From the NCBI GenBank assembly GCA_022764275.1, contig JALERH010000156.1, forward strand, positions 1 through 51,078: 51,078 nucleotides of DNA, written 5' to 3'. The stretch comes from Blautia sp. GTDB lineage: Bacteria > Bacillota > Clostridia > Lachnospirales > Lachnospiraceae. Position 1 is the stretch's first letter. Every line of letters starts with the position of its first letter. This document shows positions 21,588 through 47,081 of the stretch, in pieces. The notes beneath the pieces are model-generated. The model was not told the DNA's origin and made no database searches. It worked only from the letters and a program-made list of their open reading frames with translations. Position numbers and translations under genes: made by a program.

Positions 21588-22476
21588 AATCCTGTTCTCT
21601 CCTGCGTTTTCTGAGTGCTGCCCTTTTTTTCGCCATGGTTCGCTTTACCGTGACCACGATGCCGCAGATAACAAACAATGCAGCAGAGATCGCCTGAGAA
21701 ATTCCAATGGATGTTCCCGGTATCAGAAGCTTGTCGGTACGAAGCCATTCAAAAAAGAACCGACCCAGACCATATCCGCTCAAATAACGAAGGAATATTT
21801 CCCCATGGAAACGCTTCTTTCTTTTCCAGACAAGAAGAAGTAAAAACAAAATCAGGCACCACAGGCTTTCATACAGAAATACCGGGTGTACCTGAATATA
21901 AGAGGTACCTCCCATGGTAATCAGATTTTCCCTCATGGCAGAGCTGACTTCTCCGGATCTCACGGCAGACAGCGGAAGCTGCATGGCAAGGACATTGTTC
22001 GTGTATTCGCCAAAGGACTCTCTGTTAAAGAGATCGCCCCACCTTCCTATTATCTGCCCAATGAGAATTCCCATACTGGCAGTATCTGCCATCTGCATAA
22101 AGGATAATTTTTTTATCCGGCAGAAAAGCGCAGCCCCAAGGGCGCCCCCCAGCAAACCGCCATAGAACGCCATACCACCGCTTCTGGCATTGAAAATCTG
22201 CATCACATTTCCCTTGTACTGATTCCAGGAAAAAGCCACATAAAACAGTCGGGCACCAATAAAACCAGTGACCAGTGCGATAATCGTCATGCTCAGATAA
22301 TTATCCTGATTCTCATTGCATCTTTTTGCCTCCAGTACCACGAAAGCAAGTCCGAGAATCATTCCCACCGCAATGAGCACGCCGTAAAAGGTTATCTCAA
22401 ACCCAAACACGCTGACAGATCTTCCCACATAATTGAAATTCAGTCCCAGATTGGGAAAACGAATCGACATATCCAT
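21427..22476 (-). CDS. lgt: Prolipoprotein diacylglyceryl transferase
   Basis: 349 residues. A membrane enzyme that moves diacylglycerol from phosphatidylglycerol to the lipobox cysteine of prolipoproteins. The family signature I-G-R-W-G-D-L-F-N-R-E-S-F-G is near residue 150, preceded by G-G-M-A-F-Y-G-G-L-L-G-G and followed by H-P-V-F-L-Y-E-S. About seven membrane helices end near residue 283. The remaining 65 residues are an acidic, Ala/Glu-rich tail not needed by the family, and this is the part shared with the Spo0E-like ORF. AAAGGTG precedes the ATG. It lies 12 nt after ychF. Confidence 0.94.
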   Translation of the reverse strand: MDMSIRFPNLGLNFNYVGRSVSVFGFEITFYGVLIAVGMILGLAFVVLEAKRCNENQDNYLSMTIIALVTGFIGARLFYVAFSWNQYKGNVMQIFNARSGGMAFYGGLLGGALGAALFCRIKKLSFMQMADTASMGILIGQIIGRWGDLFNRESFGEYTNNVLAMQLPLSAVRSGEVSSAMRENLITMGGTSYIQVHPVFLYESLWCLILFLLLLVWKRKKRFHGEIFLRYLSGYGLGRFFFEWLRTDKLLIPGTSIGISQAISAALFVICGIVVTVKRTMAKKRAALRKRRREQDYEAEERAAREAEVRDNDGGTEAVPKNNEASEKAGSPDQQPGGSAEEHEDQPET

Positions 22477-42211: not shown

Positions 42212-43219
42212 ATGGAACAAATTAAAATTCCTATGGGCTATCATGCAGATCTGAATCTTCATGATACTCAGGTAGCAATAAAAACAGTAAAAGACTTTTT
42301 TCAGCAGACACTGGCTCAGAAGCTGAATCTTCTCCGTGTCTCCGCCCCTATATTTGTAGACCCGCGTTCCGGCTTAAACGATAATCTGAATGGCGTGGAA
42401 CGCCCGGTAAGCTTTGACATCAAAGGACAGGAGGGCGATGCGGAAATCGTACATTCCCTTGCAAAATGGAAACGTTATGCTCTGAAAAAATACGGTTTTT
42501 CCCATGGTGAGGGCCTGTATACAGATATGGTGGCCATCCGCCGCGATGAAGATCTGGATAACATCCATTCCATCTATGTAGACCAGTGGGACTGGGAAAA
42601 AATTATTTCAAAAGAAGAGCGTAACATGGATACTCTGATCAGTACCGTACGTTCCATCTACAGCGTTCTTCGAAAAACGGAAAAATACATGGCTGTTCAG
42701 TATGACTACATAGAGGAAATTCTTCCAAGGGAAATTGCCTTCGTAACCACTCAGGAGCTTGTGGATATGTATCCGGACTGCACTCCGAAAGAGCGTGAAT
42801 ACAAGATTGTAAAAGAAAAAGGAGCCGTCTTCCTCATGCAGGTAGGCAAAACCTTATCAAACGGCGAGCGTCATGACGGACGTGCACCGGACTATGATGA
42901 CTGGGAATTAAACGGCGATATTTTAGTTTACTATCCTGTACTTGATATTGCCCTGGAGCTTTCCTCCATGGGTATCCGCGTAGATGAAGAATCTCTGGAC
43001 CGACAGCTTACACTTGCCGGCTGCGATGCCCGCAGAGAACTGGATTTCCAGAAAGCGATTCTGAACAGAGAACTTCCTTATACCATCGGCGGTGGTATCG
43101 GACAGTCCCGTATCTGTATGTTTTTCCTACGCAAGGCTCATATCGGAGAGGTTCACGTTTCTCTGTGGCCAAAAGAAGTTCAGGAAGAAGCAGCCGCACA
43201 CGGTATCCAACTGCTCTAA
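42212..43219 (+). CDS. asnA: Aspartate-ammonia ligase
   Basis: 335-residue class II synthetase-like enzyme that makes asparagine from aspartate, ammonia and ATP. Family segments: V-S-A-P-I-F-V-D-P-R-S-G-L-N-D-N-L-N-G near the start, H-S-L-A-K-W-K-R, G-L-Y-T-D-M-V-A-I-R-R-D-E-D-L-D, H-S-I-Y-V-D-Q-W-D-W-E, and G-G-G-I-G-Q-S-R at the end. AAGGAGG precedes the ATG. The length is normal. Confidence 0.97.
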   Translation: MEQIKIPMGYHADLNLHDTQVAIKTVKDFFQQTLAQKLNLLRVSAPIFVDPRSGLNDNLNGVERPVSFDIKGQEGDAEIVHSLAKWKRYALKKYGFSHGEGLYTDMVAIRRDEDLDNIHSIYVDQWDWEKIISKEERNMDTLISTVRSIYSVLRKTEKYMAVQYDYIEEILPREIAFVTTQELVDMYPDCTPKEREYKIVKEKGAVFLMQVGKTLSNGERHDGRAPDYDDWELNGDILVYYPVLDIALELSSMGIRVDEESLDRQLTLAGCDARRELDFQKAILNRELPYTIGGGIGQSRICMFFLRKAHIGEVHVSLWPKEVQEEAAAHGIQLL

Positions 43220-43286
43220 AACAAAAAGCAGCAATAGATGCGCTGTCAGGAGCTCTGGACAGCGCAGTTGAAATGAGGGATCATCA

Positions 43287-43703
43287 TTGAACATATTATT
43301 TTTCCTGACGCCCAAAAGCGAAGTGGCGTACATTTTTGAAAACGAAACCCTGAGACAGACACTGGAAAAAATGGAGCACAGAAAATTTTCCTGTATCCCT
43401 ATCCTCAGTCCGGATGGAAAATATACAGGTACGATTTCCGAGGGGGATCTTCTTTGGGGTCTGAAGCGTCTGAATATCATAGATCAGAAGGACGCTGAGG
43501 GAGTACCCATTATGGCAGTTCCACGCCGTGCCACCTACAAACCGGTACACATTAATTCCAATATGGAGGATCTCCTGGATCGTGCCATCAACCAGAATTA
43601 TGTGCCTGTGGTGGATGACCAGGGTTATTTCATCGGTATCATCACCCGAAAGGCCATCATCAAATACTGCTATAATGAACTGAAAAAAACAGCCGGGGAG
43701 TAA
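43287..43703 (+). CDS. CBS-domain pair protein
   Basis: 138 residues made of two CBS domains, a module that usually binds adenosine ligands and regulates partner proteins. Domain 1 about 8-65 (L-R-Q-T-L-E-K-M...I-P-I-L-S-P-D-G-K-Y-T-G-T-I-S-E-G-D-L-L), domain 2 about 85-132 (V-P-V-V-D-D-Q-G-Y-F-I-G-I-I-T-R-K-A-I-I). A TTG start is used with GAGGG 7 nt upstream. It follows asnA by 67 nt and is probably co-transcribed; a regulatory link to asparagine synthesis is only a guess. Its stop lies inside the shared terminator. Confidence 0.85.
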   Translation: MNILFFLTPKSEVAYIFENETLRQTLEKMEHRKFSCIPILSPDGKYTGTISEGDLLWGLKRLNIIDQKDAEGVPIMAVPRRATYKPVHINSNMEDLLDRAINQNYVPVVDDQGYFIGIITRKAIIKYCYNELKKTAGE

Positions 43704-43722
43704 AAACTCCCGGCTGTTTTTT
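43684..43722. terminator. Shared terminator overlapping two convergent stop codons
   Basis: AAAAAACAGCCGGGGAGT pairs with ACTCCCGGCTGTTTTTT (one bulged G). The stop of the CBS gene (43701-43703) is in the hairpin, and the stop of the minus-strand ATPase gene (43721-43723) is in its T run, so one element serves both. Confidence 0.9.
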
Positions 43723-44467
43723 AAAGCACCTTGGAAAGAAAGTCCCGAAGTCTCGGATTTTTCGGGTTTGCGAAAAATTCTTCCGGCGCGTTTTCTTCCT
43801 GAATGATCCCGTCATCAATAAATAATACACGGGTGGCAACCTCTCTGGCAAATCCCATCTCATGGGTAACCACCACCATGGTCATGCCGGACTGCGCCAG
43901 TTCTTTCATCAGCTCCAGAACCTCTCCTACCATCTCCGGATCCAGTGCGGAGGTTGGTTCGTCAAACAGCATTACATCCGGATTCATCGCCAGAGAACGT
44001 GCAATGGCAATACGCTGCTTCTGCCCTCCGGACAGCATATCCGGATAGGTGTCCGCTTTCTCCGGAAGACCTACACGTGCCAGAAGCTCATCTGCCTTCC
44101 TGGATGCTTCTTCTTTTGTCATCAGCTTTAAGTGTACCGGTGCCAGCATAATGTTTTCCTTTACCGTCTTATGCGGAAACAGATTAAACTGCTGGAACAC
44201 CATACCAATCTTCTGGCGATGACGGTTAATGTCCACCTTCGGATCTGTAATATCCGTTCCTTCAAAAAGGATTCTTCCTCCGGTCGGCTCCTCCAGAAGA
44301 TTCAGAGAACGCAGGAAAGTGGATTTACCGGACCCGGAAGGACCGATAATGGCAACCACTTCTCCCTGGCAGATATCTGTGGAGATTCCGTTCAGAACCT
44401 GGTTGGTTCCAAAAGATTTTTTCAGTCCCTGTACCTGAATCAATACTTTACTTTTATCAACGCTCAC
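43721..44467 (-). CDS. Polar amino acid ABC transporter ATPase (GlnQ/HisP type)
   Basis: 248-residue ATPase. Walker [11 protein letters not shown]-loop [12 protein letters not shown], signature L-S-G-G-Q-K-Q-R, Walker [15 protein letters not shown]-loop V-V-T-H-E-M-G-F. The Q-F-N-L-F-P-H-x-T and E-M-G-F-A-R-E-V segments are typical of the polar amino acid group. It overlaps the permease gene by 11 nt. Confidence 0.95.
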
Positions 44468-45149
44468 TGGTTCTTAACCTCCTCTCCAGCTTGTTCATGA
44501 AAAAGGTCAGTGTCATAACAATTACAAGATAAATCGCAGCCGCAGCCATCAATGGCCAGAATGCGTTATAGGTACGGCTCTGAATCAGCATCGCGCCCTT
44601 TGTCAGATCCATCATACCGATATAACCAATGATGGAGGTTTCCTTAATCAGTACGATGAATTCATTTACCAGAGCCGGAAGGACATTTTTAAATGCCTGG
44701 GGAATGATAATGAGGCGCATGGTCTGTGAATAATTCAGGCCAAGACTCCTGCCGGCCTCGGTCTGCCCCTGGTCAATGGACATGATACCGGAACGGACAA
44801 TTTCTGCCACATAAGCGCCGGAATTGATTCCGAAAGAAAGCCCTCCCACGATGATCTTATTCATACTCACAGAACCAAAAATTACAAAGTTCATGATCAG
44901 AAGCTGGATCATACTCGGCGTACCGCGGATCACTGTCAGGTATACCCGGCAGATGGCATTTAAAATCTTAAATTTCCCGGATTTATCATGAGCAGTCCGG
45001 ACAATCGCCACCAGAAAACCGATCACAATGCCCACGATTACCGCAAAGACCGTAATGATCAGAGTAGTCTTCAAACCATCCAGCAGCCAGAGGTAGCGAT
45101 CTTCTTTGATAAAATTAACATAAAAACCGTGTTTGATATTTTCCCACAT
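44457..45149 (-). CDS. Polar amino acid ABC transporter permease
   Basis: 230-residue HisM/GlnP-type inner-membrane permease with about five helices. It begins with a helix near 22-48 ([13 protein letters not shown]) and carries the family loop [23 protein letters not shown] (the EAA coupling motif). The R-G-T-P-S-M-I-Q-L segment is also typical. It probably works as a homodimer. The ribosome site is weak (GGT about 8 nt before the ATG). Confidence 0.94.
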
Positions 45150-45234
45150 AATTTACCAACTTTTTCCCTTGAAAAGAGCTGTTGGCGAAAAGGTCAACAG
45201 CTCTGTCGATAGTATTTGAGTTTACGGTACCGGA

Positions 45235-46023
45235 TTATTCTTTTACGATAATAACCTGGCTTGCATTTGCGTATGTGTCTGTGAAGTTTACGCTTTCTTT
45301 TCTGTCTTCTGTAACGGTCATGCCTGCTGCGCCGAAGTCTGCTTTACCGGACTGTACAGCTGCCAGAATCGCATCAAATTCCATATCTTCGATCTTCAGC
45401 TCATATCCAAGCTTATCACAGATTGCCTGTGCGATATCCACATCGATACCTACGATCGCATCACCTTCGTGATATTCATATGGCTCGAACTCAGCGTTGG
45501 TTGCCATAACCAGTGTTCCGTTGGAGCGGTCAGTATCTTCCGGGGACTCATATGGAGTCTGACCTATTTCATCGCCGATGTAGTTGGACATAATGGAATC
45601 AATGGTTCCGTCCTCTTTTAATTCCTTTAATGCGCCGTTCATTTTATCCAGAAGCTCTTCGTTGTCTTTCTTTAAGCAGATTGCATATTCTTCCTCTACA
45701 AACGGGTCATCCAGAATCTTAAGTCCTTCTGCATTCTCTACAAATTTGGCTGCCGGCTGGGAATCGATGATCACACAGTCAACCTGACCTGCCAGAAGGG
45801 CCTGAATGGCTTCGCTGCCTTTATTGTAACGTTCAACGGTAGCTCCTTCTGCCTCATAGTCACTTGCTGCAAGGTCTCCTGTAGTTCCAAGCTGAACACC
45901 GATGGTTGCTCCTGCAAGGTCATCAATGGATTTTACCTCTTTTGCAGCGGAAACGCTGGATACCATAGATACTGTCATAACTGCACCCAAAGTGAGGGCT
46001 GCCAGCTTCTTTGTATTTTTCAT
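45235..46023 (-). CDS. Amino acid-binding protein, circularly permuted and non-lipidated
   Basis: 262 residues of the SBP_bac_3 fold, but with its halves in swapped order. After a signal peptide (residues 1-26, cut near V-S-A/A-K) it opens with V-K-S-I-D-D-L-A-G-A-T-I-G-V-Q-L-G-T-T-G, normally the middle of the family. It reaches the usual end A-L-K-E-L-K-E-D-G-T-I-D-S-I, crosses a polar linker, and only then gives L-V-M-A-T-N-A-E-F-E-P-Y-E-Y, normally the mature N-terminus. It ends at N-A-S-Q-V-I-I-V-K-E. There is no lipobox Cys, unlike most Gram-positive binding proteins. GAGGAGG precedes the ATG. First gene of the transporter operon. Confidence 0.9.
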   Translation of the reverse strand: MKNTKKLAALTLGAVMTVSMVSSVSAAKEVKSIDDLAGATIGVQLGTTGDLAASDYEAEGATVERYNKGSEAIQALLAGQVDCVIIDSQPAAKFVENAEGLKILDDPFVEEEYAICLKKDNEELLDKMNGALKELKEDGTIDSIMSNYIGDEIGQTPYESPEDTDRSNGTLVMATNAEFEPYEYHEGDAIVGIDVDIAQAICDKLGYELKIEDMEFDAILAAVQSGKADFGAAGMTVTEDRKESVNFTDTYANASQVIIVKE

Positions 46024-46226: not shown

Positions 46227-47081
46227 ATGAAATTTACTAAAATGCATGGCATTGGTAATGATTATGTATATGTAAATTGTTTTCAGGAAACGGTAAAAGA
46301 CCCATGTGCAGTGGCAAAGTTTGTCAGTGACCGGCACTTCGGCATCGGCTCGGACGGTCTGATTCTCATCAAACCATCCGACATTGCAGACTGCGAGATG
46401 GATATGTATAATCTGGACGGTTCCCAGGGCGCTATGTGCGGAAACGGAATCCGCTGTGTGGCAAAATACGTATATGACTACGGAATCGTAAACAAAACCA
46501 GCATCAGCGTGGCTACCAAAAGTGGAATCAAGTATCTGGATCTGACTGTAAAAGACGGCAAAGTTTCTACGGTAAAGGTAAACATGGGCTCCCCCATCCT
46601 TACTGCAAAACAGATTCCCGTTGTTTCCGAAACCGAGGAGGTTCTGGATGCACCAATTGAGGTGAACGGAGATGTCTACCGGTTCACTGCCGTTTCCATG
46701 GGAAATCCCCACGCCATTGTATATATGGACGATGTGGAGCATCTGGAAATCGAAAAAATCGGTCCGGCTTTTGAGAGTCATGTGTTTTTCCCGGACAGAG
46801 TAAACACAGAGTTTGTGAAAGTAATCGACAATCATACGGTTCAGATGCGTGTATGGGAACGGGGCTCCGGAGAAACGCTGGCCTGCGGAACCGGTGCCTG
46901 TGCCGTCGCGGTGGCATCGATCCTGAACGGCCATGTCGATGGTACGCAGCCTGTAACCGTAAAGCTTCTGGGCGGCGATCTGGAAATCTTCTGGGATCGT
47001 GACGACAACCTCGTATACATGACAGGCCCTGCTGCTACTGTCTTTGACGGGGAGATCGACCTTGCTTTTCTGGGAGAGTAA
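46227..47081 (+). CDS. dapF: Diaminopimelate epimerase
   Basis: 284 residues. Converts LL-DAP to meso-DAP for lysine and for the peptidoglycan stem that MurE builds. The two catalytic cysteines are in G-A-M-C-G-N-G-I-R-C and T-L-A-C-G-T-G-A-C, with G-I-G-N-D-Y at the start and G-N-P-H-A and R-V-N-T-E-F in between. GAGGAGG lies about 8 nt upstream of the ATG. An equally long frame on the opposite strand is an antisense shadow. Confidence 0.97.
   Translation: MKFTKMHGIGNDYVYVNCFQETVKDPCAVAKFVSDRHFGIGSDGLILIKPSDIADCEMDMYNLDGSQGAMCGNGIRCVAKYVYDYGIVNKTSISVATKSGIKYLDLTVKDGKVSTVKVNMGSPILTAKQIPVVSETEEVLDAPIEVNGDVYRFTAVSMGNPHAIVYMDDVEHLEIEKIGPAFESHVFFPDRVNTEFVKVIDNHTVQMRVWERGSGETLACGTGACAVAVASILNGHVDGTQPVTVKLLGGDLEIFWDRDDNLVYMTGPAATVFDGEIDLAFLGE

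Follow-up and report, generated by a model that had tools for sequence, protein, structure and literature searches.

Does the open reading frame at positions 45235..46023 (minus strand) of a 51,078-nucleotide stretch of a Blautia genome, the whole of which is hereafter called the window, encode a complete binding protein whose two halves stand in reversed order, and if so, what does such a protein do and how did it arise? The frame is single and open, starts with an ATG at 46023 and encodes 262 aa, which we describe as a circularly permuted SBP_bac_3 substrate-binding protein. Naming N and C the first and second halves of the SBP_bac_3 family, the window protein is C-N, with all its parts on the minus strand. 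Half C (residues 29-150, 45574..45939), the usual second half of the fold, contains the pocket residue Asp87 and is followed by a linker of 13 residues (residues 151-163, 45535..45573, DEIGQTPYESPED) running from the ancestral C-terminus to the ancestral N-terminus, then by half N (residues 164-262, 45238..45534), the usual first half, which contains the pocket residue Arg241 and carries a hinge strand at its end.

The family's N-then-C order is not found in the window protein, whose halves match the second, then the first half of PDB homologues. In a phmmer search against the PDB, residues 168-261 aligned with positions 9-103 of the AncQR chain 4zv1 (81.0 bits) and residues 29-150 with positions 108-232 of the same chain (80.9 bits), and 6svf shows the same swapped two-part match. 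The Pfam profile SBP_bac_3 (PF00497) also matched in two stretches, scoring 123.8 bits against a gathering cut-off of 26.4, the best stretch placing residues 171-261 on profile positions 1-91, and the NCBIfam model NF008426 placed residues 18-153 on positions 129-264 of 266. Since the two phmmer stretches cover both halves of the homologue, the protein is complete and its order reversed. The initial annotation, which had proposed reversed SBP_bac_3 halves and a permutation rather than a truncation, is borne out on both counts by these searches, by the recurrence of the order at independent loci and by the structure model. The window protein scored below the cut-off of all 13 curated full-length NCBIfam models of amino-acid binding proteins listed (145.7 bits against 256.35 for TIGR01096), and the permuted order by itself would depress such scores; full-length profile models and sequential structure searches under-score permuted proteins of this kind.

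An assembly or annotation artefact, in which tandem pieces or two genes had been misjoined, deserved consideration because the window comes from a draft genome of 205 contigs and a canonical tandem array is known in the family (locus L044). An independent contig scan found 36 loci with a relative, 34 of which show the C-N order in one frame (L024, cut by a contig end, included), so the order is not artefactual; the two canonical loci are L042 and L043, the latter with two canonical genes in tandem. The single frame recurs in isolate assemblies, such as those of Blautia wexlerae (L008) and Fusicatenibacter saccharivorans (L029), and in the one-contig genomes G001 and G037. The gene is also under purifying selection: dN and dS were 0.119 and 1.20 against L008, 0.101 and 1.55 against L009, and 0.270 and 2.36 against L029, the other four of the seven codon comparisons run being saturated. 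With the same order present in independent genomes, a fusion of frames or a faulty assembly is ruled out, and we consider its probability practically negligible.

Seen through wider samples, the protein is no isolated case but one member of a large and conserved family, which has close relatives in canonical order. An orthologue was found in 33 of the 41 genomes of the genus sample (own genome included), the match crossing the C-to-N junction in 32 and covering a part only in G025. The search for the same order in other Lachnospiraceae, recommended with the initial annotation, returned at least 64 of 299 family genomes (own genome included) with a permuted gene whose match spans the junction, a hand count that includes the partial gene of G207 and the divergent fusion of G120 and excludes G235, whose match comes from a canonical tandem. 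Half-profiles run on fetched DNA confirmed 43 of the 64, and the remaining 21 are each supported by a single junction-spanning match, the ORFs being 265-302 aa long. Beyond the family, permuted genes were found in G340, G344, G345, G433 and G447 of the order sample (246), and outside the order G647 alone passed 1e-42 in the phylum sample (398).

What the rearrangement does to the fold was addressed with a structure model, the check initially suggested for the permutation, and the outcome was favourable: the model is of high confidence (pLDDT 95.9, pTM 0.90) and keeps the hinge strand on which the chain ends. The candidate hinge strands are residues 83-92 and 226-235, the second being this final strand, which in a canonical chain would lead on into half C. 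The chain would start in the second lobe, right after the first hinge strand, traverse what remains of the old C-terminal half, cross the short linker built from the old C- and N-termini, and finish on the hinge strand. The cut would take away just a surface loop behind the first hinge strand, the linker spanning the old termini, and the two lobes and the amino-acid pocket would re-form as in a canonical protein, which should then close on its ligand and dock on a permease as usual. In canonical SBP_bac_3 proteins the termini lie on the first lobe. Judging the lobes from topology, the permuted chain would have both termini leaving from the second lobe, so that whatever is attached there, be it the signal or lipid anchor or, in relatives, a fused permease, would be tied to lobe 2 instead of lobe 1. 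The pocket Arg column is conserved at 0.97 in 38 canonical units, 0.99 in 89 permuted units and 1.0 in 19 units of a further layout (type E, below), and the pocket Asp column at 1.0 in all three groups; we take these two residues to serve the alpha-amino-acid pocket, as in GlnBP-type structures. A polar amino acid is the probable ligand, and the window protein most likely functions as the Venus-flytrap receptor of an ABC importer for amino acids, produced by tandem duplication and trimming. It might alternatively exchange its halves between two chains, in a dimer combining half N of one with half C of the other: swapped elements have been reported in circularly permuted ribose-binding protein constructs (PMC10601554), and a linker of 14-26 residues, as found across the permuted units, could permit the swap. 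Against this stands the confident monomer model, albeit one still compatible with a swapped dimer, and we regard the exchange as quite improbable.

The neighbouring genes agree with a receptor acting in an importer. Directly downstream of the binding-protein gene lie an amino-acid ABC permease gene (44457..45149, minus strand; BPD_transp_1, with HEQRo_perm_3TM above its cut-off) and, overlapping it, an ABC ATPase gene with an ABC_tran domain (43721..44467, minus strand), whose best NCBIfam match is GlnQ, below the equivalog cut-off; this is the arrangement of a cognate operon. A stem-loop lies between the binding-protein and permease genes (45175..45204, minus strand); the fold of region 45150-45240 reaches -19.7 kcal/mol with a z of only -2.1, 5 of 200 shuffles being equally stable, and the stem-loop, which is not among the calls of a terminator scan, may favour the binding-protein portion of the message. 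Permease and ATPase genes also follow downstream at most permuted loci with sufficient flank; within the fetched flanks no permease was found at L055, L056 or L058, and no ATPase at L064 or L086. The ORFs at +1993 in L055 and at -2063 in L056 encode divergent permuted binding proteins. At L050, two differing permuted binding-protein genes stand in tandem before a single permease and ATPase.

The initial annotation had also noted an A-x-A type signal peptide without lipobox cysteine, in a window that contains lgt, and this reading holds. The signal peptide (residues 1-26, 45946..46023, minus strand), read from the sequence by eye, ends in VSSVSA-A and has no Cys, and hence no lipobox of the Gram-positive binding-lipoprotein type; lgt lies at 21652-22413. 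A connection between the permutation and the missing anchor is not supported: a lipobox is present in 50 of 66 free permuted units (49 of them recognised by pattern, L090 by eye) and in all 19 units of type E, and four canonical-order SBP_bac_3 binding proteins of the window's genome, encoded beside permeases (L002, L003, L005 and L006), also lack it. Since most permuted units carry the box and four canonical paralogues do not, the loss of the anchor is a lineage trait and not an effect of permutation. The 16 permuted units without the box (L001, which is the window, L008-L021 and L038) all fall in the Blautia part of the operon tree, as one 15-row branch plus L019, adjoining the box-bearing L022 and L023, and the cysteine would have been lost later, in the window's lineage. 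Among the SBP_bac_1 matches of the same genome, a box is present in L163, L169 and L171 and not clear in L162, L164, L165, L166 and L168, while L167 and L170 could not be judged and stand outside this tally. The missing anchor of the window protein and of its 15 relatives, together with divergent permuted genes lacking a permease in the fetched flank (L055, L056), could instead indicate a free secreted scavenger or a signalling decoy outside any transporter. We hold this to be very improbable: the permease and ATPase operon is conserved with the binding-protein gene, and the four canonical binding proteins just mentioned adjoin permeases and are equally devoid of lipobox. In the importer receptor that we favour, an uncleaved signal peptide could serve as membrane anchor.

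Natural permutation is already known in other classes of binding proteins, and what is new here is the SBP_bac_3 amino-acid case. Relations by circular permutation among glycine-betaine binding proteins, including OpuAC (2B4L), were reported with CPSARST, the proteins of that group being less than 24% identical to one another (PMC2395249), whereas canonical and permuted forms are here about 55-81% identical per half. OpuAC of Bacillus subtilis is the best sequential structural match of our model (201 aligned residues, rmsd 4.5); it differs in ligand class and is 15% identical to the window protein, and no OpuAC-family match appeared among the Pfam matches at E 0.001. The crystal structure of the glucose-binding TpMglB-2 (Tp0684, 'cluster Bc') likewise shows a natural circular permutation with ligand binding and closure retained, at 13% identity over the permuted part, and homologues also occur in Gram-positive gut bacteria (PMC4990184); its fold is that of the type I, cluster B sugar-binding proteins, cut at another place and with a fourth cross-over, whereas the window protein is of the SBP_bac_3 family. 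The canonical SBP_bac_3 proteins AncQR, TmArgBP, GlnH and ArtJ share sequence family and pocket residues with the window protein, but not its order. Close in layout are the tandem domains fused to a permease of GlnPQ type (PDB 6h30), whose SBD1 and SBD2 meet in this C-to-N junction too; each GlnPQ domain is canonical, while the permuted chain is equivalent to the last half of SBD1 followed by the first half of SBD2. Among the best 60 of 482 PDB matches of the permuted profile, 6h30 alone was matched in one nearly full stretch (3-234 on 100-327), and it is also the first Foldseek row for the model, in a sequential search where the query TM does not exceed 0.53 in the 50 rows listed. Permuted pairs number in the thousands in a recent structural survey (PMC12667903), and a term search of its main text returned neither 'periplasmic' nor 'solute'. 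Among the literature matches listed, which cover few subscription papers, none describes a naturally permuted amino-acid-binding SBP_bac_3 protein, in line with the initial annotation, to which no described protein of this type was known.

Close canonical relatives offer a view on the origin of the reversed order. Six of them (L045, L059-L063) share the operon, and their identity to the window protein is 70-81% over half N and 56-62% over half C, with 81% and 56% for L059, 80% and 62% for L060, and 78% and 61% for L045; the canonical L042 reaches 72% and 55%, and the Anaerococcus pair L043 47-56% and 44-47%. Locus L044 (minus strand) carries a 973-aa ORF in which three near-identical canonical binding domains in tandem are fused to a permease, 202-204 of their 217-220 residues being identical (about 93% at the protein level, 85-87% in DNA). 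Most likely the binding domain was duplicated head to tail and then lost its first N half and its last C half, and an array of the L044 type deprived of these two halves does yield the C-N order. Two main models of circular permutation have been published, duplication and fission-fusion (PMC3320104). In favour of the latter, with fission into two genes re-fused in the other order, L099 (G249) has its halves in separate frames, an example of split halves at least as a sequence state. Except at that locus, no separate C and N genes appear in the ORF listings of the fetched loci, and tandem forms are at hand in the permease-fused array of L044, the tandem canonical genes of L043 and a C-N-C-N-permease array (L071), which makes fission-fusion an unlikely, although still serious, contender against tandem duplication. 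Linkers of permuted units measure 14-26 residues (median 16) and fit the 14-residue natural linker of the GlnP tandem (PMC8025302), consistent with a tandem origin. In 75 of 89 permuted units the linker contains a PY or Y-x-S/T-P motif, which suggests that most of these units share an ancestor; the 14 units without the motif include the divergent L057, L058, L064, L065, L071 and L072, which may have arisen separately. Overall, we have high confidence in a permuted type II binding protein of a polar-amino-acid ABC importer, with duplication as its likely origin.

The half-profiles delineated several layouts in the fetched loci: 67 C-N ORFs (counting that of the window and the partial one of L095), 32 N-C ORFs (including the paralogues of the window's genome, two fetched twice), 22 C-N-permease fusions, 19 C2-N-C1 ORFs, one N-C-N-C-N-C-permease (L044), one C-N-C-N-permease (L071) and two incomplete forms (L024, L099), counts that are not frequencies since the loci were chosen largely with a permuted query. 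The fusions, of 501-556 aa, are found in L046-L049, L054, L057, L072, L074-L080, L082-L086, L088, L089 and L114. The array of L071 (minus strand, 806-aa ORF) could represent two permuted domains or one canonical domain flanked by two halves. The C2-N-C1 ORFs, type E (L070, L096, L097, L101-L103 and L124-L136), represent a distinct circular permutation of the same binding-protein family, cut inside half C. A type E query matched 20 of 200 family genomes at 1e-60 and, in a phylum sample at 1e-40, 1 of 299 genomes, itself belonging to the family; the layout also occurs in L070 (G448), from another family of the order.

Whether these orders arose once or repeatedly was considered with four AU tests on quick trees, with uncorrected p values, groups defined by layout and row subsets chosen after earlier trees. 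A single origin of the main C-N set was not rejected (44 of 74 rows, p 0.609), nor was one clade of type E forms (10 of 45 rows, p 0.593); the C-N forms including the divergent L065 gave p 0.078 (16 of 45 rows). A joint clade of C-N and E was rejected (26 of 45 rows, p 0.023, uncorrected), and the two permutations are for this reason best taken as separate events. On free quick trees, the canonical, C-N and E labels require 8, 7 and 6 changes of order in three trees, which, at such poor resolution, leaves a single origin unproven; these trees are too weak for counting permutation events. The first tree (8 changes) was built without L004 and L007 (duplicates), L003 and L005 (own paralogues) and L024, L095, L099 and L115 (partial or no unit). 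The operon tree (7 changes) kept 126 of 140 rows after the removal of 11 more named rows and of three that did not have both permease and ATPase, and when rooted on divergent permuted rows it nests the canonical rows inside the permuted ones. In the third tree (6 changes, 104 of 146 rows), the canonical outgroup is not one side of a branch and 6 rows are misplaced.

On a broader reading, whose chances we put as even, the binding protein of this importer family was re-cut on more than one occasion in Lachnospiraceae and related bacteria. At least two permutations (C-N and C2-N-C1) would have resulted, alongside several fusion layouts and close relatives in canonical order, and the new ends of both permutations would fall on the same lobe, so that the anchor or permease would have moved there repeatedly. 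If true, it would constitute a natural experiment on how the position of the tether shapes an ABC importer, with tandem intermediates still extant. The earlier examples that we found among binding proteins link distant sequences; in the present case a single bacterial family contains both canonical and permuted forms of one importer. With about 55-81% identity per half, a second permutation, tandem arrays and fusions, the duplication model, the consequences for folding and the role of the tether become testable on natural proteins.

At L099, half C is encoded in a different frame from N-permease and the gene appears broken or split, and in the 458-aa ORF of L058 the permuted pair begins at residue 217, after about 200 residues. 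In Blautia-type loci the operon is adjoined by asnA, a CBS-domain gene and dapF (42212-43703 and 46227-47081 in the window), names assigned by reading the sequences; among the loci compared, these neighbours were found in 10, 13 and 15 loci, respectively, the count for dapF including the window.
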